From: Candidatus Omnitrophota bacterium | GTDB lineage: Bacteria; Omnitrophota; Gorgyraeia; Gygaellales; Profunditerraquicolaceae | Reading direction: 5' to 3' | DNA: 32,929 nt | Assembly: GCA_022013085.1 (NCBI GenBank) | Contig: JAKLQX010000004.1 | Location: 1-32,929, forward strand | Part shown: one piece after another, positions 8,455-29,859 of the stretch | Layout of the letters: each line of letters starts with the position of its first letter | Position numbering within the stretch: position 1 is the first letter of the stretch | The notes under the pieces: model-generated | Seen by the model: the letters and a program-made list of their open reading frames with translations, nothing else | The model's database searches: none | What the model was told of the DNA's origin: nothing | Program-made: the position numbers and the translations under genes

Positions 8455-9336
8455 TTAGAATTTCATCATCCCGCCCTGGGTAAACTGGATCAGGATGGGG
8501 CCGGCGACAATGATTAAAACCACTGGAAGGATAAATACGAGTAAGGGAAATAACAGCTTAATCGGAGCTTTTAAGGCCATTTCTTCGCCTCTTTGGAACC
8601 AGCGCAGGCGGATTTCCTCTGACTGCATCTTCAATGCCTCGCTAATAGGCGAGCCGATCCTGTCTGCCTGTAAAAGCGTCCTCACAAACGAACTAATCTC
8701 AGGGTTATTGATGCGGGTGGACATATTCTTTAACGCGTCACGCCGGGAACTGCCCATTTGTATTTCGTGGGCCATTATCTTCATTTCCTCAATAAGCGCG
8801 CAGGGCCTGAATTCCTGAATTACCCGGTTAACTGCCACCATAAAATCCAGGCCTGCCCCTACGCAGATATTCAAAAGGTCAATTACCAAAGGCAGGTCTC
8901 TCACAATCAAGGCGCGCCTTTTCTTAATCAGGTTATTCAGCCAGATGTCCGGTAAGATAAAACCAACGCCGGCGCAGATAACCAGTATCAGGAGTTCTGC
9001 GTGAACAGCAATAAAGGCGCCTAGCGGCACTGCCGCGGCCATGAACAATTTTAATATCATAAACTGGCTGGCGCTCATTATATTATTTGAGGAAGCTAAG
9101 CGTTTATGCAAATCGCTCGGGGACAAAGAGAGCATGGATTTGCCGAACAGGCGCTCGATAAGGCTGACTGGCCCGCTTAAAATATTTTTTAAATTAAATG
9201 CCTCCAGCCTTGAAGCCGCCGGCCCGGTAATTTCGGAAGGCAAATGCACCTCTTCCACCAGTTTACGGTTAGAAATATGATAGGCCACAAATCCAATACT
9301 GATAAACAACAATAAAATAATCAGCGCGAGTTCCAT
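8455..9336 (-). CDS. tadC: Tad pilus inner-membrane platform protein TadC
   Basis: This 293-residue protein carries a type II secretion F domain. It starts with a membrane helix (about 3-18), has central hydrophobic segments (FMILKLFMAAAVPLGAFIAV, LILVICAGVGFILPDIWL), then a cytoplasmic block typical of TadC (LPLVIDLLNICVGAGLDFMVAV, LLQADRIGSPISEALKMQSE, RWFQRGEEMALKAPIKLLFP) and a final helix. TadC and TadB form the platform at the inner membrane on which the TadA ATPase drives Flp pilus assembly. It is the last gene of the pilin operon and follows tadB with essentially no gap. Confidence 0.92.
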   Translation of the reverse strand: MELALIILLLFISIGFVAYHISNRKLVEEVHLPSEITGPAASRLEAFNLKNILSGPVSLIERLFGKSMLSLSPSDLHKRLASSNNIMSASQFMILKLFMAAAVPLGAFIAVHAELLILVICAGVGFILPDIWLNNLIKKRRALIVRDLPLVIDLLNICVGAGLDFMVAVNRVIQEFRPCALIEEMKIMAHEIQMGSSRRDALKNMSTRINNPEISSFVRTLLQADRIGSPISEALKMQSEEIRLRWFQRGEEMALKAPIKLLFPLLVFILPVVLIIVAGPILIQFTQGGMMKF

Positions 9337-9337
9337 A

Positions 9338-10183
9338 TTATATCTCCACCCGGCTTAACTTCCGGATCAAAACTATCCCGATTACTTCGGAAATCACCGA
9401 CCAGGCAAGCAGCATCTGGCCGGTTTTATCTTTAAGCATGATGTCAAAATTACCCGGGTTAGTGAAATACATGAAAACCCCGAAGGCAATCGGCAAGAGG
9501 CCCATAATCGCCCCCTGCAGCCGCCCCTGCACAGTGAGTATCCTTACGCGGTCGTCTAATTTTCTTTTTTCCCTGATGGTATGCACTAAATTTCCGAAAA
9601 TTTCAGTCAAGTCGCCTCCGGTTTCCCGGGAAATACTGATGGCAGTAGTTAATAATTCCAAATCATCTAAAGGTATTCTTTGCTTAAGATGCGCCAGGCA
9701 ATCCTCTAAGCTTACGCCCATTTTATTTTCTTTGATCACCAGGGCAAACTCATCGCTGATGGGCGCGGGCATCTCTTCGGTAAGCACCTCAAATGCCTGA
9801 GGTAAACTCATCCCTGCCTTAAGCGAGCTGGAAAGAAGCATCAGCGCATCTACCAGCTGCTTGGCGAAATTATTCAGCCTTTTTCGGCCCATATTTTTAA
9901 TCCATATCCGGGGCAATAATAAACCCAGGCCTGCGCCTGCTAAAACACCCAGTGGATTATGTAAGATCATAAATCCCAGCGTGCCCAGCACCAAAGGCGT
10001 AATCGTAAACACAGATAGTAAACGGCGCTTTTCAGTATAAATAAACATCTTATGCAGTTCTTTAGAGGCCTTTTCCATACGCTTACCCTGGAGCTGAGAA
10101 TAACGGCCTAAAAGCAAGGGAATTAATTCATAGGCCAAACCAGCGATGGAGCCGAAAATAAGTAAGATAATTATTAGTCTCAT
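9338..10183 (-). CDS. tadB: Tad pilus inner-membrane platform protein TadB
   Basis: This 281-residue type II secretion F-domain protein has an N-terminal helix (1-20), a pair of helices around 60-95, the family motif QLVDALMLLSSSLKAGMSLP, a conserved ETGGDLTEIFGNLVHTIREK block, and two closing helices (LQGAIMGLLPIAFGVFMYF and the last 20 residues). It pairs with TadC as the pilus assembly platform. It lies 3 bp behind the last small prepilin gene and directly before tadC. Confidence 0.93.
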   Translation of the reverse strand: MRLIIILLIFGSIAGLAYELIPLLLGRYSQLQGKRMEKASKELHKMFIYTEKRRLLSVFTITPLVLGTLGFMILHNPLGVLAGAGLGLLLPRIWIKNMGRKRLNNFAKQLVDALMLLSSSLKAGMSLPQAFEVLTEEMPAPISDEFALVIKENKMGVSLEDCLAHLKQRIPLDDLELLTTAISISRETGGDLTEIFGNLVHTIREKRKLDDRVRILTVQGRLQGAIMGLLPIAFGVFMYFTNPGNFDIMLKDKTGQMLLAWSVISEVIGIVLIRKLSRVEI

Positions 10184-10185
10184 TT

Positions 10186-10392
10186 TTACATTGGTGGTAA
10201 TCCGCCGCCGCCTGATAGCTGCGGTTTTAGAAGGGTCCTGGACGTTTGCCTGCCAAAACCAAACACGTCCCCTGCTTCCTTCCAGCGTCCGCTTACAGCC
10301 CGTTTAACATAAACCTGCATTGCCAAAAGCCCGGCGATTACAATCGCAATCAGCAAACTATATTCTACCACGCTCATCCCTTTTTTTCTCAT
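10186..10392 (-). CDS. Small class III-signal prepilin, Gly/Pro tail
   Basis: This 68-residue prepilin has a basic MRKKG leader followed by MSVVEY, where the Flp-type peptidase would cut after the glycine. Next come a hydrophobic helix (8-27) and the motif MQVYVKRAVSGRWKEAG shared with most pilins of this operon. The mature part is short and ends in GGGGLPPM. It is probably a minor subunit of the Flp pilus. It lies between the TadE-like gene and tadB. Methionine rather than glutamine at the +1 position is unusual for this set. Confidence 0.82.
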   Translation of the reverse strand: MRKKGMSVVEYSLLIAIVIAGLLAMQVYVKRAVSGRWKEAGDVFGFGRQTSRTLLKPQLSGGGGLPPM

Positions 10393-10397
10393 TTTAT

Positions 10398-10649
10398 TTA
10401 TTTCGGCAGCTCTTCCGGTTTACCGAATATGTTTAAATTCTTAGGCGTATAAAAATCTATCTTTGGAGGCGCGGTGGTGCCATCAGCCGCTACGGTCGGG
10501 CGCGTACTTTCATACTGCTTATGCCGTTGCACAATATTATTCCCGAACCAGACAAATATTTGCGTGGTTGCCACCAAAAAAAGAATCAGGCAAATGAAAG
10601 CAGTAGTAAATTCAAGCGCGACCTGGGCTTTTACTTGGTAATTTTCCAT
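10398..10649 (-). CDS. TadE-like minor pseudopilin
   Basis: This 83-residue protein begins MENYQVKA, then QVALEF (cleavage after the alanine), followed by a hydrophobic helix (LILFLVATTQIFVWF) and a hydrophilic tail. The ALEF/FxxxFxxL style is that of TadE-like pseudopilins, which are processed by the same peptidase and act in pilus initiation. Its start overlaps the end of the preceding gene by 19 bp, implying translational coupling. The tail ends NIFGKPEELPK and has no recognised domain. Confidence 0.78.
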   Translation of the reverse strand: MENYQVKAQVALEFTTAFICLILFLVATTQIFVWFGNNIVQRHKQYESTRPTVAADGTTAPPKIDFYTPKNLNIFGKPEELPK

Positions 10650-11632
10650 TCTGATACTCTATTCCTTTCAAAAGGAGAATTTATATTTTCCACCCCCGAT
10701 CTACTCCTAATTTTATGAGTAATTGTCGTGGGATTTCCGGCTTCATCCTTAAAACTGTATGCGGCGGTACTTGCGCTTGTCCCGGGAGTTTCTTCTATGG
10801 TCAGCTTGCCGCTGCGCCTGATATTCTGCTCATCCTCCAATAATAGCCCTTGAATATTAGCGGGAGTTACGTCAGGAATACCATCATTATTAACGTCATT
10901 ATTCAACTGCGTATAATTAGGATTGATCTCACCTGAATCCGGGCTTAATAAATTCAGGCGGGTAAGCAGATCTCCGTTAACAGCACTATCAGGGCCTACG
11001 CCAATAACCTGATATTTTACAAATGAGATCCCTCCCCATTTTAAATAAACTTCGCTGATTATTTCTTTTTGTTTGTCGGCATCAGCTGCTTCGGGATTTA
11101 ATAAAATCATTGCTTGTTTAGGTGAATCTTCGGTGGGTTGATAACAACGCAGTTTATTCCAAGTCAGAAGCTGCGGGTCGGGGTTATTGGGAAACATTAC
11201 ATAAAATTGATTGGCAGGACTGGTAATAAAACCAAAACCCGCGGTCCTATATTCGTATTCTTTACCGTTAATCACATATTTCTTCCGGGGCAAAGTCGAA
11301 TAATCGGTAAGGTCGGTATATTTATCCTGTAGAGTATTGCCCCAGATTACCTCAGCGCTGGCTTGCACCGGAACAACACTACCCGCGCCAAACATATCGC
11401 GCGGATCGGGTATATGCTTATCCTTAAGCAACACAACCGAAGCTGAGGCATCCGGCCGGGCAGGCCCATTGTATGCTTCAGATAACGCCGTGCGAAAAGC
11501 AGCCATCTGCATATCCTGCTGGTAATTATAGCGCACTCCGTAACTGATCAAAAAAGACAAAACCAACAAAAGAATCGAACCAAAAGTTGCCAATTCCGTT
11601 AAGGTCTGCGCTTTTTTATTAAAATAAGCCAT
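10631..11632 (-). CDS. Large TadE/TadF-like pseudopilin with Ca-loop-like motif
   Basis: This protein of about 333 residues is anchored by a class III-type signal (NKKA, then QTLTEL) and a hydrophobic helix (about 15-33). A long periplasmic or pilus-exposed domain follows. That domain contains NDVNNDGIPD, a DxNxDGxxD loop of the dockerin/thrombospondin type that commonly binds calcium. The rest matches no family I know. ATG 11632 is preferred over TTG 11638 because GGAGA lies 9 nt before it. It overlaps the next gene by 19 bp. A minor subunit or tip component of the Tad pilus is likely from context, and an adhesive role is inference. Confidence 0.78.
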   Translation of the reverse strand: MAYFNKKAQTLTELATFGSILLLVLSFLISYGVRYNYQQDMQMAAFRTALSEAYNGPARPDASASVVLLKDKHIPDPRDMFGAGSVVPVQASAEVIWGNTLQDKYTDLTDYSTLPRKKYVINGKEYEYRTAGFGFITSPANQFYVMFPNNPDPQLLTWNKLRCYQPTEDSPKQAMILLNPEAADADKQKEIISEVYLKWGGISFVKYQVIGVGPDSAVNGDLLTRLNLLSPDSGEINPNYTQLNNDVNNDGIPDVTPANIQGLLLEDEQNIRRSGKLTIEETPGTSASTAAYSFKDEAGNPTTITHKIRSRSGVENINSPFERNRVSEWKITK

Positions 11633-12008
11633 CTTCAAATTCTCCTAATGTTTCTTTTCCGCTTTTCTGGGTAGTCTCATCAATACTTGCCTCTGTCTTC
11701 ATTCCGTAGACAGGCAAACCATATTGATCAAGCAAAGGTTTGCCGTCCTTGTCCAAGGGAACTAAAGATTGTATTATCCCTGTGGTGGAAGTTGTTTCTG
11801 TGATAATTTTTGACTCCACATTCAACGGTGTATATTGTTCGCCTAACTCATCTCCTGCCTGCCTGAGTTTACCCTGCACTCCCCGCCTGAGGTAAAACTG
11901 CATCCCTAAAAGCGCTGCCACTACGCAGGCAACTACCATGGCGTATTCCAATGTCGATTGCGCGCTTGCCTTAGCTGAGCCATATTTTTTAATTTGCATT
12001 GTCATCAT
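11619..12008 (-). CDS. Class III-signal prepilin with DKDGKPL tail
   Basis: This prepilin is about 129 residues from ATG 12008. A longer frame to 12083 would lie inside the previous gene and is unlikely. The leader ends KASA and is followed by QSTLEYAMVV, a helix of about 20 residues and the shared block MQFYLRRGVQGKLRQAG. The mature tail carries EQYTPLNVESKIITETT, like the QYxP tails of its neighbours, and LDKDGKPLLDQYGLPVYG, which resembles the DxDGxP loops of the large pilin upstream. The start lies 8 bp behind the previous stop, and the RBS is weak, suggesting coupling. Probably a pilus subunit. Confidence 0.8.
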   Translation of the reverse strand: MMTMQIKKYGSAKASAQSTLEYAMVVACVVAALLGMQFYLRRGVQGKLRQAGDELGEQYTPLNVESKIITETTSTTGIIQSLVPLDKDGKPLLDQYGLPVYGMKTEASIDETTQKSGKETLGEFEDGLF

Positions 12009-12015
12009 TATTTTA

Positions 12016-13122
12016 TTATGGAGTGCCGCCGGGTTTACTTGCCTTACCCTTTTGCTTTTCCAACGCGCCGAATGTGCCTGCACCCTCTAATTTATAAGTT
12101 GCTTCCCAAGCGCCGGTAGTCTGAGCCGTGTCCTTATCTATAATCTTGGTTCTCATCGGATAGGCAACCGTTGCCGGACCGATGCTGGGAGACACAGAAC
12201 TTATTGTTACTATCTCATGTTGCCCATAAATATTGCCGTCGCTACCGGTTACCCCCACAATTTCCTTAGTTACCGGATCAATTACATAACCGCTGTATGT
12301 CCTAAGTACTGTGAGCTTGCTATCTACGGTTGATACCGGAAAGCCATCCGGGTCAAATCCGGTAAAATCACCTGTGCGGGCGTCCTCTCCGCCGACAAGT
12401 ATTCTGTCTTTAGGGTCAGTGGTAAAGGTATAGTAATAAACCTTACTGCCTTTTATTTCTGTTTGAATAAACCCCTTGATCTTATCTTTTTCCATTCTTT
12501 CTTTATACGCTGTCATTGCCGGATGCCAATCCGCTGGCGCTAAACTTTTCGGCCCGCTATACTTTGAAAGAGTATCCACGGTGATTTTTTTGTCTGACTT
12601 AAACACTAAAGGATTTTTAGGATCTTTATATTCGAATTTAACTAATCCGGACTCAACTACTCCTTGTTGAACATAGGCGGCTCCTTGAACCCCTGTCAAA
12701 GCTTTGCCATTTTTATCGTAGACCACCGGCAGAGGATTGCCGTCTATATCCAGACTAGTAAAATTACCCGTAGCAATATCTTCTATGCCAATGCCGCGGT
12801 CTTTCTTTATTTTCGTTGGATTATCGGGATCCTCGATATAAACATTATAATAAAAACTATTGCCTGCCCGCTCTCTTATAAAGAACTCTCCGGCTATCAA
12901 TTTATCTTTGTATGCTATTGCCAGCGGATGCCACGCCCTGGTTGCTTCATCCACCTCGATTCTACCCTCTGTTTGCTCTCCGGCTAAGGTATCGGCAGAG
13001 GTTTTGACTATACCCTGTATGCCCCGCTTAATATAACTCTGCATACCTATCCCGGCTAAGGTAACCAGGACAATTACCAACACATACTCATTTATACTCT
13101 GGCCCATTCTGCGCATTTTCAT
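12016..13122 (-). CDS. Large class III-signal prepilin with two internal repeats
   Basis: This prepilin has about 368 residues, several times the usual Flp size. The start at ATG 13122 directly follows the upstream stop. A frame from 13173 is possible but would place 17 residues inside the previous gene. The leader MKMRRMG is followed by QSINEY (cleavage after Gly), then a hydrophobic helix and the shared MQSYIKRGIQG block. The exposed part contains two homologous units (about residues 64-134 and 199-264). Each opens WHPxxxAYK, passes through a Y-rich strand and TGxFT, and ends in DxDGxPV. The unit matches no domain I know. It may be a tip or minor adhesive pilin, an inference from size and context. 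Confidence 0.78.
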   Translation of the reverse strand: MKMRRMGQSINEYVLVIVLVTLAGIGMQSYIKRGIQGIVKTSADTLAGEQTEGRIEVDEATRAWHPLAIAYKDKLIAGEFFIRERAGNSFYYNVYIEDPDNPTKIKKDRGIGIEDIATGNFTSLDIDGNPLPVVYDKNGKALTGVQGAAYVQQGVVESGLVKFEYKDPKNPLVFKSDKKITVDTLSKYSGPKSLAPADWHPAMTAYKERMEKDKIKGFIQTEIKGSKVYYYTFTTDPKDRILVGGEDARTGDFTGFDPDGFPVSTVDSKLTVLRTYSGYVIDPVTKEIVGVTGSDGNIYGQHEIVTISSVSPSIGPATVAYPMRTKIIDKDTAQTTGAWEATYKLEGAGTFGALEKQKGKASKPGGTP

Positions 13123-13123
13123 T

Positions 13124-13459
13124 TTATTGCACACCCCTTTTGGCTGTGCCTTTGACGACTGTGCTATCCTCAAGAGAATCCCGGGTTGTTAGGCCTTCAT
13201 ATTTTACATCTTCATTAACTATTTTAGATTGCTTAACTGTAAATTCGTCCTGGACATAGTATGGCTCATATTGTTTGGGGCTTGCGGCCTGTTTAGCCGC
13301 GTGATCTACCAATTCCCGGTATCTTCCCTGTAAGCCCCTTTTTACATAAAGCTGCATGCCTAAAAGCGCGGCTAAAACTAATGCCAGACAAATGCTATAT
13401 TCAGCCACGCTTTGTGCCCTGCTTATTCTCGATATTTTATTTACTATACAAATCCTCAT
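13124..13459 (-). CDS. Class III-signal prepilin, QYEPYY tail
   Basis: This prepilin is about 111 residues from ATG 13459, which has AAGG/GGGG just upstream and overlaps the preceding gene by about 20 bp. A longer frame to 13534 lies within that gene and is not favoured. The signal ends ISRA and is followed by QSVAEYSICL, a helix, and MQLYVKRGLQGRYRELV. The mature tail has KQYEPYYVQDEFTVKQS, then a Lys/Glu-rich segment. The QYEPYY element is shared with the 116-residue pilin at 13796. Context and signal make it a pilus subunit, and which one is dominant cannot be told. Confidence 0.8.
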   Translation of the reverse strand: MRICIVNKISRISRAQSVAEYSICLALVLAALLGMQLYVKRGLQGRYRELVDHAAKQAASPKQYEPYYVQDEFTVKQSKIVNEDVKYEGLTTRDSLEDSTVVKGTAKRGVQ

Positions 13460-13781
13460 CCTTACCCCAGGCCTCAATCTTTTCATCAGCCAGGCTTTCT
13501 TTCTTCTGCACGCGACCGGCACCGGAACCATCACCTAAGTCAATATACTTTTGAGTTGTAGCTCTGTTTTTAAGAGTCTGTTCTGTATAACTCTTACTGG
13601 TTGTTTGGAATTTTCCGGTATGTTTGGTAGGGTCATATTGCTCGCCAATATCATCGCTAGCTGACTTTAATCTTCCGGCATAACCATGCTTCATATAATG
13701 CTGCATCAGCAAAAGCCCGGCAATGATCACTGCGGTTATCAACGCATATTCTAATGTGCTCTGGCCCTTTTTGTTAAACAT
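13437..13781 (-). CDS. Class III-signal prepilin
   Basis: This 114-residue prepilin has the signal MFNKKG then QSTLEYALIT, a helix of about 20 residues and MQHYMKHGYAGRLKSAS, a diverged form of the operon signature. The tail has EQYDPTKHTGKFQTTSKS, aligned with the QYxP tails of its neighbours, and a charged C-terminus. A strong RBS, GGAGG, lies 9 nt before the ATG. The 17-bp region ahead of the ATG is identical to that of the next pilin upstream (13796-14146), which suggests recent duplication of the gene start. Confidence 0.85.
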   Translation of the reverse strand: MFNKKGQSTLEYALITAVIIAGLLLMQHYMKHGYAGRLKSASDDIGEQYDPTKHTGKFQTTSKSYTEQTLKNRATTQKYIDLGDGSGAGRVQKKESLADEKIEAWGKDEDLYSK

Positions 13782-13795
13782 CTTTGTTCACCTCC

Positions 13796-14146
13796 TTAAT
13801 CAGCGCTGGTTGTGCTCAGGACTGTCTCAACCCCGCCTGCATCAACCTTGGTTTCCTCTTTTACGTTACTACGAGTAATCGCACCGCGATTCCCCAGTGC
13901 CTCATCGGCAGTTCTCTCGCTTCTTACTTTTGTAACGGATTCCGCGTAATACGGCTCATATTGATTACCGGTAAAGTTTAAATTAACGCCACCCACATCT
14001 TGCGATGTACCGGTGTGTTTAACCGCTTCATGAATTCTACCCTGCAAACCCCTTTTAACGTAGGTCTGCATTCCTACTGCTGCGGCAATTATCAATGCGA
14101 TAAGAATCGCATATTCCGCTGTATTCTGGCCCTTTTTGTTTAGCAT
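13796..14146 (-). CDS. Class III-signal prepilin, QYEPYY tail
   Basis: This 116-residue prepilin has the signal MLNKKG then QNTAEYAILI, a helix, and MQTYVKRGLQGRIHEAV, the clearest copy of the family signature. The mature tail contains NQYEPYYAESVTKVRSERT and a Val/Thr-rich end. The RBS GGAGGTGAACAAAG is identical to that of the following gene. It lies between the canonical short Flp-like genes and the longer pilins. It is likely a pilus subunit processed by a TadV-type peptidase not encoded here. Confidence 0.85.
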   Translation of the reverse strand: MLNKKGQNTAEYAILIALIIAAAVGMQTYVKRGLQGRIHEAVKHTGTSQDVGGVNLNFTGNQYEPYYAESVTKVRSERTADEALGNRGAITRSNVKEETKVDAGGVETVLSTTSAD

Positions 14147-15998: not shown

Positions 15999-16013
15999 CT
16001 TAACCGTCCTTAT

Positions 16014-17087: not shown

Positions 17088-17096
17088 TATTTAACT

Positions 17097-17124
17097 TGCG
17101 CTAACCATAAATATCGGATAAAAT
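17097..17124 (+). promoter_or_regulatory. Possible promoter of the membrane glycosyltransferase
   Basis: TTGCGC (about 17097-17102), 16-17 bp, then TAAAAT (17119-17124) lie only about 10 bp before the ATG at 17135. The message would have a very short leader, and no Shine-Dalgarno is visible. Confidence 0.4.
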
Positions 17125-17134
17125 CAATTTTATT

Positions 17135-18763: not shown

Positions 18764-19294
18764 TCTCTTCAATTGCTCAAGGAACTCAGGATGAAGCTTT
18801 TCTCCTAACGCTTCTAATCTATGGACATCTTCCCAGCATTTATTGTATTCCTGCTTTAGAAAATATACGGAGGCCCGGTTATGATAAGCCCCAACTAATT
18901 TAGGATCCAACTCTATGGCCTTGGCGTAGTCAGAGATGGCTTGATCAAGATCGCCCTTTTTAGCATAGGCAAGGCCGCGCCGATAATATGCCTTTGTATA
19001 ATTAGAATTAAGCTCTATAGCCTTGGTATAGTCAGAGATGGCTTGATCAAGATCACCATTTTCAACGTAGGCACGGCCCCGGTGATAATAAGCAGCGCCG
19101 TAGCGCGGCTTAATCTGAACGGCGGTATTGAATGCGCTAATTGCCTTGTCGTACATTTTACTTTTAAAATAGTCATTGCCTTTATCAAACATCTCCTTTT
19201 CCGGGTTTTGGGCATAGGCATTGGCGGTAATAAAAAGTAAAGCTGCAAAAATATTTATACTCACCTTGCGCAAATTATATCTTTTAAAGTTCAT
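18743..19294 (-). CDS. Secreted TPR protein (TadD-like position)
   Basis: This 183-residue protein has a signal peptide (NLRKVSINIFAALLFITANAYA, cleavage near 28) and at least three tetratricopeptide repeats (YFKSKMYDKAISAFNTAVQI, AYYHRGRAYVENGDLDQAIS, AYYRRGLAYAKKGDLDQAIS) plus a degenerate fourth. The second and third are near copies at the DNA level too. Tad systems have a TPR lipoprotein, TadD, that helps assemble the outer-membrane secretin. This gene closes the second Tad operon and is the best candidate for that task, but it lacks a lipobox. Its ATG overlaps the previous stop (ATGA) and GGAGGGG precedes it. Confidence 0.85.
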   Translation of the reverse strand: MNFKRYNLRKVSINIFAALLFITANAYAQNPEKEMFDKGNDYFKSKMYDKAISAFNTAVQIKPRYGAAYYHRGRAYVENGDLDQAISDYTKAIELNSNYTKAYYRRGLAYAKKGDLDQAISDYAKAIELDPKLVGAYHNRASVYFLKQEYNKCWEDVHRLEALGEKLHPEFLEQLKRLSGRER

Positions 19295-21941
19295 TCTACC
19301 CCTCCATTTAAAAAGGATTTTCTTTTTCTAAAACAGTTTCGGGATTTAACTAATTGATAGTAGATCTGATTTGGGATATTTGTCCTTAAATGCTCCCAAT
19401 TACTCTGGCTGCGGTGTTGAGTCAACGACTTAAAAGCAATCTGATGAATTGTTTTATGTTCCGATGAGATATATTCTAAAGGATTAATTTTAAGTTGGCT
19501 ATCTGCCGTATCCTCTTCATTACTTATCGAACGTTGATAAAACTTAAGCGGCTGCCAGGGCAGCAGGCCGTTCCTAATCATCGCAGGATAAGCTTCCGGG
19601 TCGCCGGCTAAATCAAACGCCTCTTTGGCCAGCATAACTAAAACCCGGTGCTGGCCAGATTCTTTGGGATTTGCGTCATTGTGCCTGGTAATAATTATCT
19701 GCGGCCTAATCAGGCGGATAAAGTAAACTAATTTTTCCAAGGTATCTTTTCTTCCCCATTTTTCAAGTGTTTCATCGACGGAAAGAGTGTAACCGAAATC
19801 TGCCTTGCCTAAATAATAAATCTTTTTTACCCCTAAAATAGAGGCGGCTCTTTCCATCTCTTTAGTGCGCAGGAACCCCAATTTTTCATGAAGAGCAGTG
19901 TTGATCTTATTCCTTCCTCCTTCTCCCCGGGTAGCCAAAAGCGCGTAAGTTTCGCAATTCAATTTCTTACGGAAATATACAAGCGCGTAGCCATCTTCGT
20001 CATCGGGATGCGCGGCCAGGCAAAGAACACGGGCCTTACTTTTACCGCCCTGAATTACGATTTGCTTTGTCCTTTCAAACTCTTTACCGATGACATAGGG
20101 GCTGCGGGTAAAAATCCCATATTGGCTGACTCTGCCGCCTTCGTGCTGGCCGACTATAAACATGGGTATCTTGGCCCCCATTTGCGCTTCTTTTATAATC
20201 TTTAGGTTATCGTGAAGATAATACATTCCTCCTAGATTATATTTTTTAAATATGCCGGTATCTTTATTGCAATCAAAGATAAGCTTCTGGCAAATCTTTT
20301 CTTCAATGGGCATATCTTTTAAGAGATGTTCCAGGGGGATGGCAAAAATTTTCTCTTTTTCTTTGAGTATCCGCGAAACCGACGCATCAATATCTTTTTC
20401 ATTAAGGAGGCCCTTTCCTACCGCCTCTTTTACGGTATTGATTATACAAGCGGCAGTTCCTTCTACTTTATCCTCAGCCGGATAAACTATCGCCATATCT
20501 GCGCCTGCCTGGAAAGCCTCAAGCACGATTTCGCCGCTATACGGTTCATTAATTCCCTGCTTAAGAGCGTATTCTTTCATTGCCCGCATAGCCAGTAATT
20601 CATCTGCCACGATTATACCCTTAAACTTTAATGCCTTACGCAAGAGCTCGGTTTGAATCTTATAAGATAAAGACGCGGGCTTATCGTCCAAGGCAGAATA
20701 AATCGCATGATCAACCATTATCCAGCTATCGGGGTATTTTTTAATAATTTCCCTGAAGGGAACCAGGTCTTTGTTATAGAGTTCTCTTTCAGAAATATTC
20801 ACCTCAGGCAGGGTAAGATGCGTATCAGCATAAACTGCGCCCAGGCCGGGGAAATGCTTGATTACAGGTATGATCTTACCTTTAAGCATCCCTCTAACCG
20901 CCGCAGAAGCCAGCTCAGTAACAATTTGCGGGTCATCTGAATACATCCGTTGTTTTTTTACTAAAGGATGGGTTAGGTCTTCAATATTATCCGCTACATC
21001 AACCACCGGAGCAAAATTTACATTATAGCCGTTAGTGCGCATATATTCGGCTATATTTAACCACTCATCCTCAATCTGCCCAAGATACGCCTCTTTATCC
21101 GCCGGAATATTCCAGAATAGCTCTTTATCTTTAATAAAAGTTTCAAAAAGGTCCTTTTCTTTTTTTACGTCCAATTGCGTGGCATAAGAATTCAAAATTC
21201 TATTTTTAAGTTCTTTAAAATAGGCAATATCTTCGTTGAACGCGGGCCGTTGAGAAAAAAGAAAGGGTCCTTTTAATGCGGGATTATGGATTAGATAATA
21301 AGATACCGCAGCCTCGGGGTTTAATTTCTTCAAAGCGAGATTTAAAAAAAAGGCGGTTGCCTGATGGTCCGCGTGAGTATCTGAAGGATGGGGCGCGTAT
21401 ATCCTTTGAGGATTATATTCCTTAATTATGCCTTCTATGTCCGAAAGCAGGTTTTCCCGGCTGTACCCCTTCTTTGCCCGCTTATAGGTTATCCTATAAG
21501 GAGAAGAGCTTGCTCCGGTTGTAGGAGATTTATAATTTTGGTTGTATTCTTTTTTCCAGAGATAAGAAAGCCCCTGGTCCGGATAACTTAAAAAAATTAT
21601 GTACTTTGCCTCCAGGCGCATTTTTTTGGCTGCTTGCAATGCCTCTCTTTGGCGTTCTTTTCCAAAGGTGATATAATCCTTTGGGCTAAGTTCCTCCGGT
21701 TTCTTTTTAAACCAAACAGCCGCCGCCTGAGAAGATGCATCACCGTTGGTCAAAAAAACTATTTTTACTTTTTTATTTTCCTGGAGTGCCTTAAGAATGG
21801 TCCCGCCGCAGGCAAGGGTTTCATCGTCGGGATGGGGAGAGAAAACGAGGATATCAACCGCGGATTCTGCCTGCGTTAAATTGACGTTGAAGATAAAAAA
21901 AAATATAAAAAAATGAGAAAAATATATTTTTTGTTAATCAC
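19291..21941 (-). CDS. PIG-L deacetylase / permuted GH3 / PIG-L multidomain enzyme (frameshift near start)
   Basis: A reading frame of over 870 codons fuses three catalytic modules. PIG-L/LmbE domain 1 has SPHPDDE and HPSDTHADHQA zinc motifs. A GH3 C-half follows (NFAPVVDV, IIPVIKHFPGLG, catalytic DTH dyad, nucleophile Asp in VADEL), and then a GH3 N-half (MPIEEKI to VGQHEGGRVSQYG), so the halves are in reversed order. PIG-L domain 2 has AAHPDDE and RHNDANPKESGQH. Together they suggest deacetylation and cleavage of N-acetylhexosamine polymers outside the cytoplasm. A GTG at 21941 overlapping the previous stop gives a good signal peptide (MINKKYIFLIFLYFF) but in another frame. One extra T in the T9 run (21903-21895) joins them. 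In-frame translation without this change could only start at TTG 21753, losing the first zinc motif. Confidence 0.8.
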
Positions 21942-24198
21942 ATTTGGTCTCGGCTATATAAATATCGCTCTTTTCCGGGCCGTAATGCGCTGTGCTACAA
22001 CTGGTAATGGCATCAGTTAAAATCGCATTAACAGAACTCTGGGTTGAATCTATCTTAGCGTTATCCTGAGCATCCCTCACTATATTCTCTAATTGCTCAA
22101 GGGAAAATTCAGCAGCAGCGGGCGCTTTTCTGCGCTTTAACTTCCACCCTCCCTCAGCCGTTTTCCCTACACCCGTCGGCTGATCCTGGTCGTAACGCCA
22201 GACTATTATTTTAAAATCTCCTGCGCCACTTTCTAGCTTCCAGCGCTTTTGTAACCCTAACCACTCTACAGTTTCGCTAATATAAGGAAGCTTTTCTGGA
22301 TAACCTTCTATCGCCACCTGCACAAAGTGGGAGAATTGTTGCCCCCCATCTACCTTAGGCTTATCCTTCCAGGCATAAACAATTTCGTTTCTTATTTTAG
22401 AAGCACATGGTAATCCTGGCAAACACGTCGGAGTAACATGTTGTATATACGCATCTACATACTCCTCGATACTCTTTTTTATATTACCGATATCGTAATT
22501 CAAGGCTCGTAGAATTTTCAGCGCTTGCTCAACTTCGGTAGGGCCGGAGGTATTATCGTGTGCCAACTGGCCTTGAAAAAGGCGCGCATCATCGCCGCAG
22601 TCAAATGAATGAACACTACATCCGCAGTTACTATGGCAACTGGCTTGATCTTTATGGCTTGCGCACCAACCGGGTTGAATTCCATACAAATCTCCGTCGC
22701 TACATACGGGCGGATTCTCACAACAGGTATAATATGTTCCTTCCCAGGCACAGGGTGATTTTTCTGACGACGGATAACAACAGGTATTACAACAACAATC
22801 GGAGCAATCGCTGCCGCAACAGTGACAATCGCATTCAGGAGTACTACAACCGTATTGCGTATAACAAGTACTACTAACTGAAACGCCCCTGCCCCAGGTG
22901 CATTCTCCGTGTTTACTTTTTATATCCGGGACAACAGTGGTATTATTTAAAGCTTCTAACTCCGTAATCCAAGTATTAATATTATTTTGGTCGCGGGTTA
23001 AGCGCTCATAAGCGTCGTCTTCTAAATCCCCGTCTATACTGCTTTTATCCAGATTATGCTGATTAGAATCGTAAAAAAAGGGAAGCCATTGTGTTGTGTT
23101 GTTTAATGCTGCAGTCATAGGCATATCCACAAACTCTTTGCTTCTGAATAAAAACATCCTCAGGTCTTCAATTAACTTATTCACATCGCTACAGGTTACC
23201 GTTGCTGTGGTACAGGGATCTGACGAACTACAAAAGCTTAAAGAAGGATACGCGCATTTTAACCGTTGCAACAAACTGATCAGCTTATCTGTTAAAAATC
23301 CGCCGGTAACCTGGCTTGGCCCCTCTGGCTGAGTTGCGTCTATTTTCATTATTGCTATTTGTTTACTCGTAACATTTTTAACCCAAGCCGGGCAAGAAGC
23401 GCTGGAAGTACAGGTAATTTCGTAATTAGCCGAATCTTCCTCCAATCCCGGTTCAATAAAATAAGAAAACTTGTTAATCTTCCATTTTTCACTATCCCAT
23501 CCGTCTTCAACGTCGATAGCAATGAACCTTTTGAGCCCGCTTTTAAATGTATCCAGGGCCTGTTTTAAATCGTCATCACTCACCAACGGTAGCCGTAAGG
23601 CATAATACCAAGCAGCGAATCTGCCTACTTTATTTGCATTGCGCATTTCAGGGATAGCGCTTAAATCATAATCTTTGCCGGTTGCCTCGTCGCGAAAAAT
23701 GCTTACTCCCACTCTTTTCAACTCAACATCGTCGCTCTGTGTAGAAAGCAATGCCCCAAACAGAGCACTCTCTCTTAAGGCATCGTGTGTAGTCATCTCT
23801 TTATTAAATCTATCGGTTATACCTCCAAGCATAGATGTGGACATTGACATCGAAACTAACAAGCCCAATCCGGTAAGAAGAACTACCGGGCTTATTAAAA
23901 TCCCTCCTACAATGGAGCCGACTAAAACTAACACCAACGCCAGCCAACCATAACCAGTTTTCTCTGTTTGCCCACCTAACACCTCATCCTTATAATAATG
24001 GCTCATGCTGCCCAACTGCGAGGCTAAACTCAAAGCGACCTTATCTGCTGCTTGCGAGGTTGAGGTTTTAATCTGGATCACTTTGCTGATATTTATAAAT
24101 ACGGCGGTAAATAAAATTATCACCGCGATGACAAAGGTGATAATCACGGCGATCTGGCTGCGGCGGTTTAGCGGTAGGTTTTTGCGGAAGAAATTCAT
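21934..24198 (-). CDS. TadG-like pilus assembly protein with Cys-rich insert
   Basis: This 754-residue protein starts with the TadG/TadE-type module (NRRSQIAVIITFVIAVIILF, then a helix and QAADKVALSLAS, 12-60), plus a second hydrophobic stretch (85-125) unusual for the family. The long extracytoplasmic region is not recognisable as a von Willebrand A domain. Residues 433-534 contain 22 cysteines (for example CDCHCCGSDCSDCCCNTCC), implying dense disulfides or metal binding. TadG is a putative minor pilin or adhesin-like anchor of Tad systems. Its ATG overlaps the TadZ-TadA stop by one base (TAATG). The Cys-rich part is the most unusual stretch of the operon. Confidence 0.78.
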   Translation of the reverse strand: MNFFRKNLPLNRRSQIAVIITFVIAVIILFTAVFINISKVIQIKTSTSQAADKVALSLASQLGSMSHYYKDEVLGGQTEKTGYGWLALVLVLVGSIVGGILISPVVLLTGLGLLVSMSMSTSMLGGITDRFNKEMTTHDALRESALFGALLSTQSDDVELKRVGVSIFRDEATGKDYDLSAIPEMRNANKVGRFAAWYYALRLPLVSDDDLKQALDTFKSGLKRFIAIDVEDGWDSEKWKINKFSYFIEPGLEEDSANYEITCTSSASCPAWVKNVTSKQIAIMKIDATQPEGPSQVTGGFLTDKLISLLQRLKCAYPSLSFCSSSDPCTTATVTCSDVNKLIEDLRMFLFRSKEFVDMPMTAALNNTTQWLPFFYDSNQHNLDKSSIDGDLEDDAYERLTRDQNNINTWITELEALNNTTVVPDIKSKHGECTWGRGVSVSSTCYTQYGCSTPECDCHCCGSDCSDCCCNTCCYPSSEKSPCAWEGTYYTCCENPPVCSDGDLYGIQPGWCASHKDQASCHSNCGCSVHSFDCGDDARLFQGQLAHDNTSGPTEVEQALKILRALNYDIGNIKKSIEEYVDAYIQHVTPTCLPGLPCASKIRNEIVYAWKDKPKVDGGQQFSHFVQVAIEGYPEKLPYISETVEWLGLQKRWKLESGAGDFKIIVWRYDQDQPTGVGKTAEGGWKLKRRKAPAAAEFSLEQLENIVRDAQDNAKIDSTQSSVNAILTDAITSCSTAHYGPEKSDIYIAETKCD

Positions 24199-26312
24199 TA
24201 CTCTTTCTTTGTTCCTGTGGTTTTAAACTCTCCCTGAATTTTTCCCTGGCTGTCAATACCGGACTGCTTAAAAACAAACAGGTCATTTAATCCGATATGC
24301 ATCTCATCAACCATGCCGGTAATTTCCGTGATCTGGGTGATCTTTCTTGAGCCGTCGGAAAAACGGGCAGTATGCACAATCATATCAATGCTGGAGGCAA
24401 TCATCTCGCGGATTGCCCGCAGGGGAATCTCGATACCGCTCATCAGGATCAGGGAATCCAGGCGCGCTAAAACATCCTGCGTGGAGTTGGCATGAATGGT
24501 AGTCATCGAGCCGTCGTGGCCGGTATTCATTGCCTGAAGCATATCCATAGTTTCCTCGCCCCGGCATTCTCCGATAATAATCCGGTCCGGCCGCATGCGC
24601 AGGGAATTACGGAATAAATCACGCACGAAAATCGCCCCTTTTCCCTCAATATTCGGGGGCCGTGACTCCAAGCGTATCCAGTGTTGATGGTCGAGCTTTA
24701 ATTCCGCCGCGTCTTCAATAGTAATTACCCGTTCTCCTTCAGGAACAAACTCCGAGAGCACGTTCAAAACCGTGGTTTTTCCCGAGCCGGTGCCTCCGGA
24801 AACGATGATGTTTTTACGCGCTAAAACGCAGGCCTTGAGAAACTCCCCCATAATCTTATTTAAGGCGCCCAGCCGCTCTAAATCATTAACTTTCAGCCGC
24901 TCCTGGCTGAATTTTCTAATCGTCAACGTCGGGCCGGTAAGGGAAAGCGGAGGAATAATCGCGTTGACCCGTGAGCCGTCGGAAAGCCGGCCGTCAACCA
25001 TCGGCACCGACTCATCTACTCTCCGGCCTAAGGGCGCGATAATCCGCTCGATTATCTGGCGCACCTGTTCATTAGATACAAAACGCTTAGGAACTAACTC
25101 GAGCTTACCATGTTTTTCGATGTAGATCTGGCTCTTATTGTTCACTAAAATATCGGTAATTTCGGGGTCACTAATCAAATCTTCTAAAGGGCCCAAGCCC
25201 AAAATCTCGTCACTGATCTCCTTGATCAGCCGCTCCCGATCCTGGCGCGAAGAAATAAGCGCCCCTGCTTCATCCATGAGCGCGGTATTGATCGCTTTCA
25301 TTGTCTTCCGGCGCAACTCCGCGATTTTTGCCATATCCCCGGCTACATGGTCGAGGCGCCGTAAATCCAATTCCTGAATAACGCGCTTATGCACCCGTTG
25401 TTTTAAATCGTCTATTTTCTCTTCGCCGGTGAGTTTTCTCTCTGTGGGCTTGCGGCCGCCTAAAGAAAGTGACTCCAGAGAGGAAGTATCCTCTTCTAAA
25501 AATTCTCTTTTTTTTTCCGTAATCGGAACAGCTGCTTCTAATTTTTTATGGGAGATAAAAAAATCGGGGTGAGTGAGTAAATCCTCGGCTAATTTATTCA
25601 GCACAATACTTACGCGCGAACGCGGGCTATCCAGCACCACGGGTATCCCGCGGTTCAAGGCAGAACCAACAGCCTTGCCCTCCGACGGGATGCGGCTGAT
25701 TATATCGCAGGGCAAAGCCGCCCTTACTTCCTGCCAGGATACCGCTCCTGTGCTTTCCGCGCGGTTTAAAACCACGCGCATCATCTTGGCGGGAAAATAC
25801 AGTGACTGCAGCATTTTAATGTCTTCTTTCGCCTGATAAACCGAAAGGACATCGGGGTTAATCGCCAATAAAATCAAATTTGTCTGCTCCAGAATCGCGA
25901 TCAACGCTTTGTTAAATGTCCTGCCGCTGTCGCAAACAATAAATTCGTATTCTTTGCTCAAATCATTCAGAACACAAGAAATAAACTTTTCATCAACATA
26001 GGGCCTTTCTTCGGCAGTTAATATCAAAGGCAACAGGTCCATATTCGCGGCGGGATAATGAAGAATATATTCGCCAATCTGTGAAGGGGAATAATTGCCT
26101 TTCTGCCAGTCGGGAATAAGGTCGGCCAAGGGCTTTTTCGGCTTTAAATTCAAAAGCATCGCCATATTGCCCGGCAGCTGCAAATCCGTATCAAAGAGCA
26201 AAACCTTTTTACCTTTAGTTAATTTCTGGGCTAAGGCAACCGCAAGGTTGGTGACAATAAACGTCCTTCCTACGCCGCCTTTAGTGCTAAAGATAGAAAT
26301 AACCTGGGCCAT
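24198..26312 (-). CDS. tadA: TadZ-TadA fusion: localisation ATPase joined to pilus motor ATPase
   Basis: One 704-residue polypeptide combines two Tad ATPases that are normally separate. Residues 1-250 are a MinD/ParA-like TadZ/CpaE domain, with a P-loop KGGVGRT (11-17) in which the second lysine is arginine, and FDTDLQLPGN (40-49). After a linker, residues 310-704 are CpaF/TadA, with Walker A GGTGSGKT (506-513), Walker B RIIIGECRG (577-585), His box and Asp box (ITIEDAAEL). TadZ places the complex and TadA powers pilus polymerisation. A single frame through the junction and a clean linker argue against an assembly artefact. It lies two bases from the secretin stop. Confidence 0.92.
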   Translation of the reverse strand: MAQVISIFSTKGGVGRTFIVTNLAVALAQKLTKGKKVLLFDTDLQLPGNMAMLLNLKPKKPLADLIPDWQKGNYSPSQIGEYILHYPAANMDLLPLILTAEERPYVDEKFISCVLNDLSKEYEFIVCDSGRTFNKALIAILEQTNLILLAINPDVLSVYQAKEDIKMLQSLYFPAKMMRVVLNRAESTGAVSWQEVRAALPCDIISRIPSEGKAVGSALNRGIPVVLDSPRSRVSIVLNKLAEDLLTHPDFFISHKKLEAAVPITEKKREFLEEDTSSLESLSLGGRKPTERKLTGEEKIDDLKQRVHKRVIQELDLRRLDHVAGDMAKIAELRRKTMKAINTALMDEAGALISSRQDRERLIKEISDEILGLGPLEDLISDPEITDILVNNKSQIYIEKHGKLELVPKRFVSNEQVRQIIERIIAPLGRRVDESVPMVDGRLSDGSRVNAIIPPLSLTGPTLTIRKFSQERLKVNDLERLGALNKIMGEFLKACVLARKNIIVSGGTGSGKTTVLNVLSEFVPEGERVITIEDAAELKLDHQHWIRLESRPPNIEGKGAIFVRDLFRNSLRMRPDRIIIGECRGEETMDMLQAMNTGHDGSMTTIHANSTQDVLARLDSLILMSGIEIPLRAIREMIASSIDMIVHTARFSDGSRKITQITEITGMVDEMHIGLNDLFVFKQSGIDSQGKIQGEFKTTGTKKE

Positions 26313-26313
26313 A

Positions 26314-28005
26314 TTATTCTAGTTTATAGACAATGGGGATAACTATGCGGAGTTCTTTTTGATTGAGCTCCGCAGGGAACGGGGGATAAGGAGATATCTT
26401 TTTAACCATACTCACTGCGTCCTCATCAAATATGCTGTATCCCGATGATTGTTTGACCTTCACCTCTAAGAGCGCGCCCGTAGAATTAAGCCGTAAATCT
26501 AATCTTACCAAACCTTGCATTTGGCCTTGTTTAGCTGCCCAAGGATAAACTAAATTATCCTGTATACGCTTGGTAATTCTACCCATATATTCAGACATCG
26601 CCTGACTGGTTAATTCGGCAGGAGAGATCACTTTGGTTTCATCAGGCATAGGCGTTTCAATTTTAGCGCTTTCTCTGATTAGAGGTACCTTGGCTGCTGC
26701 TACTGGGATTGCTGCTACTGGAAGAGGCAATTGTGTTTTCACTACTTCTTTAACAAGCGCGGGTTCTTTTATAATTGTGGGAGTAAGCGTAATCACCAAC
26801 TCTGTATCGCCTCTCTCTCCCGTACCGCCTCCGGCTGTAGTTGTTTTTTTCCTGAAAAATACACCCAACACCGGTATATCCCCCAAGAAAGGAGTTTTGC
26901 GGATATCTTCCTCGGACTTTTGCTTGATCAGCCCGCCGATAGCCATCATCTGGCCGTCATTAAGAAAAAGCTGCGTGGATGCGTTGCGCTTGCTTAAAGG
27001 ATAGGCCTTGGCCGTAGTAGTCGTAGTCGAGCCGCCCGTTGAACCAATGGTATCCGCTACGCCCACATCGCTGACTTCTACACTCAATGCCAACTTAATC
27101 TGCTTATCTTCGGTTATCGTGGGTTTTATCTTTAACTTAATACCGTATTCTTTATATTCTATATTTGTGCCGCTGGCTCCGGTAGAAGCCGCGATACTGG
27201 TATTAAATATCGGTTTTTCTCCGCCGACTAACAACTCCGCTTCCTTGCCGCTCTGGCAGGCAAGCCGGGGTTGAGAAAGGATGCGCGCCTTTCCTTCTTG
27301 AACCAAGGCGTCTAATTTAAAGGTAAACGGATCGGCGCCGGCAGAAGTACCCCGCTCTAAATTTAAAACTTTAAATAAAGTCGAAAATTTCGTGCCCGCG
27401 GCGGCAATACCGGGAGAGCCTACTTCCATAAGGTTTAGAGCTCCCGGAAAGGTAAATCCCAACGCCTTAGAAGCATCTTTATTTAATTCCAGAACTTGCA
27501 CATTAATCTCGACCACTGCCCTTTCTTCCATTAATTGGATAAGATTGGTGGTTTTCCCTTTAAGTGAACTTAAGGCAACATCAATACGCTCTAAATCCGA
27601 AGGCGTCTTTACGCTTCCTAAAAGTAAAACTTTGCCTTCACTATCCGACGGCCGCGTAAAAACCTTGGGAAAATTCAATTCCTTTAAAAGGGCGTCTATT
27701 CTTTTTTTAATCAAATTCATATCTTCCTGAAAAACCTCTACCTGTAATGTGTGCTGGCCCGCTGCATCCCACCAGACCAAATTGGTTGCGCCCGGGCTTT
27801 TGGCCACCAAAATCATATCAGCCTTGCTTACCGCGGTGACATCAAGGATATTCGGGTTATTAATTACTATTTTGGTTGGGGTATTTACCGGAAAAACTTT
27901 GATTTCTGTAACGTATAAAGTTATAAGTTTTAGCTCTTCAGCATAGGCTCCCGCCGCGGATAAAATAAAAAACAGTAAAAATGTAAATTTAAGCATGGCC
28001 TTCAT
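26314..28005 (-). CDS. cpaC: Tad secretin (CpaC/RcpA) with C-terminal TonB domain
   Basis: This 563-residue protein has a signal peptide (about 1-22) and a pilus-type N-terminal domain (PTKIVINNPNILDVTAVSKA to WWDAAGQHTLQVEV). A BON-like module and a secretin domain (ILSQPRLACQSGKEAELLVG, GQMMAIGGLI, TPFLGDIPVLGVFFRKK) follow. A Pro/Ala-rich linker then leads to a TonB C-terminal-like domain at about 473-563 (VYPWAAKQGQMQGLVRLDLR, VKVKQSSGYSIFDEDAV, PYPPFPAEL, IPIVYKL). The secretin forms the outer-membrane pore of the pilus. The TonB-like tail is not part of CpaC/RcpA and is notable. It overlaps cpaB by 4 bp (ATGA). Confidence 0.9.
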   Translation of the reverse strand: MKAMLKFTFLLFFILSAAGAYAEELKLITLYVTEIKVFPVNTPTKIVINNPNILDVTAVSKADMILVAKSPGATNLVWWDAAGQHTLQVEVFQEDMNLIKKRIDALLKELNFPKVFTRPSDSEGKVLLLGSVKTPSDLERIDVALSSLKGKTTNLIQLMEERAVVEINVQVLELNKDASKALGFTFPGALNLMEVGSPGIAAAGTKFSTLFKVLNLERGTSAGADPFTFKLDALVQEGKARILSQPRLACQSGKEAELLVGGEKPIFNTSIAASTGASGTNIEYKEYGIKLKIKPTITEDKQIKLALSVEVSDVGVADTIGSTGGSTTTTTAKAYPLSKRNASTQLFLNDGQMMAIGGLIKQKSEEDIRKTPFLGDIPVLGVFFRKKTTTAGGGTGERGDTELVITLTPTIIKEPALVKEVVKTQLPLPVAAIPVAAAKVPLIRESAKIETPMPDETKVISPAELTSQAMSEYMGRITKRIQDNLVYPWAAKQGQMQGLVRLDLRLNSTGALLEVKVKQSSGYSIFDEDAVSMVKKISPYPPFPAELNQKELRIVIPIVYKLE

Positions 28006-28904
28006 TTTTCTTTGTTTGCTGCTGATAGGGGAACAATTTCTTTTTGCAAGCCGCGATAGATCTCCACTACCGGCTGGCCTTCCAAGCCTATTTTCTCACC
28101 CTGGCTGGTGGATAAATAATTCAACAAGGTATCCCAGTCAACCGGTGCAACCGGGTCAACCCCGGTATCCTGCGAGGAACGCAGGGCTAATTTGATCTTG
28201 CCGTGTTCCTGAACAAAAGAAAGCAATACCGCTTCCTGGGGCGTAAGCGCAAAAGTAACGGGTTGCGCCGCGGCAGAGCCTTCTTTTGTTTTATATTTTG
28301 AAGCAACCATTTCATTTCCCATGGCTAATACTTGAATGCCTTGAAAAAGTGAGATTAAACGCGGGGCGGAACTTTCCGTTGCTTGCGGAGCGGCCTTCTT
28401 AGGTAAAGCAATAAGCGCGAATATATCCACGTAATCGCCGGGTTTTAGCAAACTGGCGATACCGGAAAGGCTCTCCGCTGAAACCGTTATCGCCCTTTTG
28501 CCTTCGGGCGTAATTTCCGAAAGAGTCTTGCCGATATTTCCGGGAGGAAGAAGTTTACTGCTGAGTATCTGCTCTTCGGCGGCAATCGGGCCGGAGGCAA
28601 TCTGGCCCATAACCTGCTCAAAAGAGGTAACTGCGCCGGGCTGGATATATTCCACCGGCACCTGTTTAAATGTAATGTCTTCGGCAGTAATCGGAGTTTG
28701 CGCCGGGATATCTTTTTTCGCCACCATCACCACTCCCATGGTTACTTTCGGTTTGGCAGCCAGGGCCTTTTGTTCCTCCTGTTTCATCCTCTCCCAGATT
28801 TCAACTTCTCTTTTTCCAAGATAGAGGTTTAACAATATTATCGCCGCAATCCCGCAGACAACCGCGATAATCAGAGGGAATTTTCTTCTTAATTCTATTT
28901 TCAT
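28002..28904 (-). CDS. cpaB: CpaB/RcpC pilus assembly protein
   Basis: This 300-residue protein has an N-terminal membrane anchor (PLIIAVVCGIAAIILLNLYL) followed by a SAF domain (VVMVAKKDIPAQTPITAEDI, AEEQILSSKLL). The RcpC-type segment follows (RAITVSAESLSGIASLLKPGDYVDIF, VTFALTPQEAVLLSFVQEHG). CpaB/RcpC sits in the periplasm, binds wall or glycan through its SAF fold and aids the secretin. It is co-translated with neighbours: its ATG overlaps the lipoprotein stop (TAATG) and its own stop overlaps the secretin start. The C-terminal 45 residues are an extension of modest length. Confidence 0.93.
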   Translation of the reverse strand: MKIELRRKFPLIIAVVCGIAAIILLNLYLGKREVEIWERMKQEEQKALAAKPKVTMGVVMVAKKDIPAQTPITAEDITFKQVPVEYIQPGAVTSFEQVMGQIASGPIAAEEQILSSKLLPPGNIGKTLSEITPEGKRAITVSAESLSGIASLLKPGDYVDIFALIALPKKAAPQATESSAPRLISLFQGIQVLAMGNEMVASKYKTKEGSAAAQPVTFALTPQEAVLLSFVQEHGKIKLALRSSQDTGVDPVAPVDWDTLLNYLSTSQGEKIGLEGQPVVEIYRGLQKEIVPLSAANKEK

Positions 28905-29812
28905 TATTTTATCAAATCCTGGTATAGGACTACTTTGGTTTTCTTTAACAAGCCGGTGGTTATCTCTTTTAATTTTTGCTGCTGTTTAAGAAACAGAACA
29001 CTTCTTTTAATCTCATCCCATAACTCTGATAAAACCCTTACCTGGCCCCCTTTTATCGCTTCTACCTTTATTATATAGTAACCGTTCTTTTCTTTAAAGA
29101 CGGTGCTGAGTTGGCCGGCTTCTAATAAACGTGAAAAAGCTATTTCGTCAAAACGGCTGTAATCCGCGCCGCGCTTGCCCTTTTTGATAAAACCTAAATC
29201 CCCTCCGTTTGCGGCGCTTTGCGCTTTTGAACGCTGCGTCGCCAAGGCGGCGAAATCCGCGCCTTTGAGCAGTTCGATAAGCACATCTTTTGCTTCCGCC
29301 TCGCTATCCAAAACAATCTCCCGGATTTTTCTTTCCTCTTCCTGACGGTACTGATCTTTAAAAGTATTGTAAAATTCTTCAATTTCCGAGGAAGTAACCG
29401 TTATGTTGTCTATTTCGTCATGGAGAATCTGGCTGGCTAAAACATTAATCTCCAGGTTCCTCAAGAGTTCCTGGGGTTTCGGCTGCTTATCCAGGCCCCT
29501 GGCTTTTGCCTCTAAATACAAAAGGTAACGCCGGACTAACTCTTCGTTTAAGTAAGCAATTTTTTGCTCGCGGGTATTGATTTTGGCTTCGGGGTTATCC
29601 GTGGATTCATTATAACTGCGGATTTCCTGCTCTAGCTGCTCTAAAGTAATGGGCAGGTCATTGACGTAAGCAACCACCGTGCCCTGCGGCTGCCAGGATT
29701 TAGCTTTGGAAGAAATTTTTAACTTTTTATCAACCTGCTCGCACCCGGATAAGCATAAAAATAAAAACAATAACACACAAGCAAGGGGAACCGACGGGTT
29801 TTTACGTCTCAT
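28904..29812 (-). CDS. SurA/PrsA-like peptidyl-prolyl isomerase lipoprotein
   Basis: A lipoprotein of about 302 residues. Signal peptide and lipobox LCLSGC (cysteine near residue 24) anchor it, and a SurA-N-like chaperone part follows (VAYVNDLPITLEQLEQEIRS). A parvulin domain at about 150-260 has RKIREIVLDSEAEAKDVLIE, the GGDLGFIKKGKRG motif and FKEKNGYYIIKVE. It would help fold exported proteins, here probably the secretin or pilins. ATG 29812 is chosen because GGAG is 8 nt upstream. The GTG at 29818 overlaps that site. It is the first gene of the second Tad operon, an unusual but sensible partner. Confidence 0.88.
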   Translation of the reverse strand: MRRKNPSVPLACVLLFLFLCLSGCEQVDKKLKISSKAKSWQPQGTVVAYVNDLPITLEQLEQEIRSYNESTDNPEAKINTREQKIAYLNEELVRRYLLYLEAKARGLDKQPKPQELLRNLEINVLASQILHDEIDNITVTSSEIEEFYNTFKDQYRQEEERKIREIVLDSEAEAKDVLIELLKGADFAALATQRSKAQSAANGGDLGFIKKGKRGADYSRFDEIAFSRLLEAGQLSTVFKEKNGYYIIKVEAIKGGQVRVLSELWDEIKRSVLFLKQQQKLKEITTGLLKKTKVVLYQDLIK

Positions 29813-29859
29813 CTGCACTACTCCTTCGTAAAAGTTATTTCTTGCTCGATAACCTATAA

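Follow-up and report, generated by a model that had tools for sequence, protein, structure and literature searches.

A conserved Omnitrophota protein with the halves of a NagZ-type GH3 domain in swapped order between two PIG-L domains

Families GH13 and GH70 differ by a natural circular permutation of a glycoside hydrolase barrel, and in PgaB a deacetylase and a glycoside hydrolase are carried on one chain. The protein described here is encoded in a stretch of 32,929 nucleotides (hereafter the window) of a Candidatus Omnitrophota MAG (1.39 Mb, 108 contigs) whose near relatives carry the same name. Like the GH13/GH70 pair it appears to be permuted inside a TIM-barrel glycosidase, although in a different family and at a different cut site. 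Its likeness to PgaB is a functional analogy only, in that a single exported chain would both de-N-acetylate a glycan and cleave it; the domains are unrelated and we claim no membership. With NagZ-type GH3 enzymes (B. subtilis YbbD/NagZ, T. neapolitana CbsA, M. tuberculosis LpqI) it shares the sequence of both halves, the Asp nucleophile, the His-Asp dyad and the KHFPG motif, whereas it differs from them in being permuted, in having Gln at the Asp of DxEGG, in its two flanking PIG-L domains and in scoring below the cut-off of the NagZ NCBIfam equivalog (NF003740; 116.8 bits against 207). Both of its PIG-L domains have the HPDDE and downstream His motifs of the PIG-L/LmbE proteins (CE14; diacetylchitobiose deacetylase, BshB1, MshB, Mca); in contrast to those proteins, two diverged copies flank a glycosidase, and the scores lie below all equivalog cut-offs. 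The GlyA1 subfamily of GH3 is also rearranged (PMC5104943), but there whole domains are reordered, with the sandwich and FnIII domains before an intact barrel, whereas the cut in the window protein lies inside the barrel. In the literature searched we found no natural circular permutation within a GH3 barrel, the known permuted GH3s being those that reorder whole domains.

Domain order of the window protein

The gene had been predicted at 19291-21753, with no strand given. An open frame is indeed present there, but it lies on the minus strand (the plus-strand frame has 27 stops) and extends further, to 21933; the start at 21753, a TTG taken from a mechanical ORF list, would lose the first HPDDE motif (Table 1). 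The encoded protein reads PIG-L, GH3 strands 4-8, GH3 strands 1-3, PIG-L, and its gene is the sole GH3 gene of the genome. This is the order given in the original prediction, and it is borne out by Pfam, by profile evidence and by the same order in relatives, as are the two flanking PIG-L domains with their metal-site motifs.

Table 1 Features of the permuted-GH3 gene and its surroundings in the window
Feature	Position	Strand	Basis or remark
PIG-L / permuted GH3 / PIG-L protein, open frame stop to stop	19291-21933	-	880 codons at 19294..21933; same architecture in relatives
GTG overlapping the end of the upstream gene	21939-21941	-	
Likely signal-peptide region	21880..21941	-	GTG and T9 tract
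T9 tract (A9 on plus strand)	21895-21903	-	Long ORF in -1 frame after it
PIG-L domain 1, residues 29-197, HPDDE at residue 34	21343..21849	-	PF02585
GH3 C-half, residues 287-527, barrel strands 4-8	20353..21075	-	PF00933 positions 105-314
Linker from old GH3 C-terminus to old N-terminus, residues 528-535	20329..20352	-	Spacing constant in the nine full sequences
GH3 N-half, residues 536-624, barrel strands 1-3	20062..20328	-	Profile evidence
PIG-L domain 2, HPDDE at residue 642, His 762	19618..20025	-	PF02585
TadG-like membrane protein directly upstream of the gene	21934..24198	-	Named from N-terminal segment
Tad locus core	24198..29818	-	Pfam
CpaE/TadZ-TadA fused ATPase	24198-26312	-	Pfam
Secretin, C-terminal TonB_C domain on same chain	26314-28005	-	Pfam
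RcpC/CpaB	28002-28904	-	Pfam
PPIase	28904-29818	-	Pfam
TadB/TadC-like T2SSF proteins and run of Flp-like pilins	8455..14146	-	

Both PIG-L domains exceed the PF02585 cut-off of 28.2 bits (112.1 and 64.7 bits), the second being matched at residues of about 637-772. The HPDDE motif of the second domain is found in 10/10 family members, and that of the first in every member extending that far, except G214. The homologue in this genome (L063 4277-8128) has lost both the HPDDE and downstream His motifs of its first PIG-L domain, while its second PIG-L domain and its GH3 catalytic residues are kept. BLAST gave no full-length alignment between the two domains of the window protein, and an origin of the pair by tandem duplication of an N-half/PIG-L/C-half unit was rejected, the local alignment being weak.

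Pfam readily identified the C-half, with Glyco_hydro_3 (PF00933) positions 105-314 matching residues 292-523 (E 2e-49; 169.1 bits against a curated cut-off of 27), whereas the first 104 positions were unmatched at their expected place. The segment that follows resembles a GH3 N-terminus (MPIEEKI ... GGMYYL ... IPMFIVGQHEGG) and ends after QHEGG and a TRS..GKEFE segment. Searched alone against Pfam, this N-half matched neither GH3 nor any other family, and profile methods were therefore used. A profile built from ten family members and compared with all PDB sequences gave the N-terminus of B. subtilis NagZ/YbbD as its sole significant matches (E 4e-5), and hhalign aligned the N-half with ordinary Omnitrophota GH3s at 96.6% probability and a score of 65.8, whereas none of 60 column-shuffled profiles scored above 20.3 and the reversed profile reached 13.4. 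Across 384 genomes of the phylum, the N-half profile recovered the members of the family and, in G278, a single ordinary GH3 (E 2.5e-6), in which the N-half stands upstream of the C-half in normal order. On these profile comparisons, the N-half is the N-terminal part of the GH3 barrel, with its DxEGG strand, placed after the C-half. The complementarity of the halves, which had been predicted, was recovered as template columns 18-102 and 124-346 of 367, and together the pieces would thus supply eight strands, which we take to be strands 1-3 from the N-half and 4-8 from the C-half on the basis of the alignment and of what is generally known of NagZ. Duplication of a helix at the permutation point was unsupported by the alignment.

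Conservation and origin of the swapped order

A search for relatives of the same order, as the original prediction had proposed, found the permuted arrangement in nine distinct proteins and one partial protein from 11 genomes, spread over several genera, four families and two classes and 46-65% identical. The members are G006 (100%), G019 (65%), G020, G016, G028, G043, G214, G065 and G313, with the partial protein in L027. Misassembly at the half-domain junctions or relatives of ordinary order would each have spoken against the prediction; neither was encountered, and the relatives are permuted in independent assemblies. The window is one MAG contig, on which a chimaera joining half-domains could in principle arise, but independent assemblies produced by several studies carry this order in proteins that are 46-65% identical, which leaves an assembly chimaera a vanishingly small chance, and misassembly was ruled out on this ground. 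The recurrence of the swapped order throughout the phylum confirms that the rearrangement is natural and did not arise during assembly.

In a tree of C-halves, the nine distinct permuted sequences formed one clade with support of 100/100 against 17 ordinary GH3s. A single origin is therefore enough, with loss or transfer explaining the patchy spread. All GH3s found in the sampled genus and order were permuted, and genomes without the permuted gene had zero GH3. In the simplest route, a GH3 domain would have been duplicated in tandem and the outer N-half and outer C-half then lost, which would place strands 4-8, with the nucleophile and the His-Asp dyad, before strands 1-3, the old termini being joined by a short linker. 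The permutation probably arose a single time, either ahead of the divergence of at least two Omnitrophota classes or with transfer between them afterwards.

In most relatives, some 145 additional residues separate the N-half from the second PIG-L domain, and several also have an extra C-terminal domain; the window protein is without both. The insert is present in L024, L026, L025, L066, L063 and L065 and absent from the window, G019 and G065. A Syntrophaceae protein (L028 4878-) has no GH3 but joins a domain like the second PIG-L domain to this extra C-terminal domain and to a cyclic-nucleotide-binding-like tail.

Catalytic residues and the predicted barrel

The C-half contains K359-H360, the dyad D370/H372 and the nucleophile D444. 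The nucleophile Asp in an (S/T)DxL motif, the Asp-His acid/base dyad (D-S/T/P-H), as defined for the NagZ subfamily (PMC6572805, PMC5104943), and KH are each present in 9/9 family members, in agreement with the retention of dyad and nucleophile that had been predicted. The DxEGG motif presents a different picture. Its -1-subsite Asp is Gln in 10/10 family members (Q596 in the window protein), whereas the same position is Asp in the ordinary GH3s aligned; in the GH3 enzyme GlyA1 the residues of subsite -1 include Asp-532 (PMC5104943). The replacement argues against plain NagZ specificity, and the sugar recognised by the permuted GH3 probably differs from that of NagZ. It could mean changed specificity or weak activity; because the remaining catalytic residues are invariant, we infer altered sugar recognition and not lost catalysis.

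The same Gln, with the part played by Asp-532 in GlyA1, would also suit a folded permuted barrel that serves as a lectin-like sugar-binding module or carries out a new catalysis (phosphorolysis, or action on a different glycon), the PIG-L domains doing the chemistry. An invariant nucleophile and acid/base dyad would be unneeded for pure binding, and we regard such a role as unlikely. Even less probable is that the halves are degenerate remnants of tandem GH3s, homologous to GH3 and forming no working barrel, with the region serving as a spacer between deacetylases. The N-half is strongly diverged and about 14 residues shorter, and it lacks the -1-subsite Asp and, for the most part, the Arg after it. 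AlphaFold2 also gave only low-confidence models (pLDDT 48.7 for the full protein; 46.6, with pTM 0.43, for residues 276-638) from alignments of 4-5 rows; a scan of viral contigs for extra GH3 rows yielded one weak match. A Foldseek search with the low-confidence domain model returned GH3 matches at TM about 0.2 that are sequence-driven and are not counted as fold evidence. However, every member, in both classes, retains the two halves together with a linker of constant length, and decay would not preserve an invariant dyad, nucleophile and KH. The sequence is compatible, too, with halves that complete each other between two chains in a domain-swapped dimer, but a short linker of unvarying length joins the strand 8 region to the strand 1 region, as would be expected of a directly fused permutant, and we give the dimer little credence.

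We consider it likely, with the residues and the spacing both conserved, that the protein carries a NagZ-type GH3 barrel in naturally permuted form between two PIG-L deacetylases, and that it is exported, encoded beside Tad-pilus genes in several genomes and active on amino-sugar glycans. The PIG-L domains, of the zinc type (CE14), would strip amino-sugar residues of their N-acetyl groups, and the GH3 domain, predicted to close into one barrel, would split off a terminal beta-linked (amino) sugar through a retaining mechanism with the Asp nucleophile and His-Asp acid/base. The predicted substrate and site of action would be an envelope or pilus-associated glycan, either of the cell itself or of an attached partner cell. 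The original prediction, in which the Tad-pilus setting did not figure, likewise had the halves make one complete barrel and took the protein for a self-contained enzyme processing N-acetylated glycans; we treat both points as proposals.

Leader, T9 tract and Tad-pilus setting

An N-terminal hydrophobic leader is present in every member extending that far, and the protein is most likely exported. How the leader is joined to the long frame is less straightforward in the window protein, G019, G020 and G016, where no ATG, GTG or TTG precedes HPDDE in the long frame, bar a TTG after the leader in G016. In these four, a GTG at the upstream stop opens a frame for a Lys-Lys-hydrophobic leader, and a T9 tract lies exactly 38 nt after the GTG in 4/4, the long ORF continuing in the -1 frame. 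Homopolymers of at least nine are rare, with one or two per 18-33 kb stretch. Between G019 and G020, 5/6 codon changes before the T9 tract are synonymous in the GTG frame and 1/6 in the long frame; in other pairs the changes were uninformative. These observations make the tract a candidate site of programmed frameshifting or slippage within the signal peptide. No RNA stem-loop that might act as a frameshift stimulator was found after the tract, and transcriptional slippage therefore fits better than a structured frameshift site.

Gene-context analysis shows that the permuted gene lies within a Tad locus, flanked by a TadG-like gene and a TPR gene. The TadG-like neighbour has no Pfam match. The gene is inside a Tad-pilus locus in four genomes, the arrangement of the window being common to G019, G020 and G016, and in G028 and G214 a TadG-like gene, named by eye from its N-terminal segment, stands upstream. 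Linkage with Tad genes is conserved except in G065 and G313, where no Tad genes were found in the stretches read. Within the genus, the TadG-like protein was found in 4/4 members with the permuted gene and 0/15 without it, although the 19 genomes sampled are related and do not count as independent observations. In Omnitrophota, Tad complexes have been discussed as devices of attachment and predation (PMC10066038).

Several other features of the locus were observed. The ORF at 24198-26312 joins CpaE/TadZ-like (CbiA/AAA_31) and TadA-like (T2SSE) ATPase domains, and at least five paralogous Flp-like pilin genes, several of them overlapping, lie at 10631-14146 on the minus strand. PMT-like and GT2 glycosyltransferases (15264-18763) adjoin the Tad locus and are near the gene in several relatives too; protein or pilus glycosylation is a possible role for them.

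A secreted, Tad-associated enzyme for amino-sugar glycans is the most likely reading. A more specific proposal, that a GH3 permutant that evolved once by a cut within the barrel is a dedicated Tad-pilus enzyme of Omnitrophota, with the Gln-for-Asp change giving new specificity and with export in one genus-level clade needing slippage at the T9 tract, we put forward tentatively and hold to be rather doubtful as a whole. A conserved permuted family that can be paired with ordinary GH3s of its own phylum provides a clean natural test of the tolerance of a TIM-barrel glycosidase for new termini, and through the link to Tad a step of glycan processing becomes testable in this uncultured phylum.
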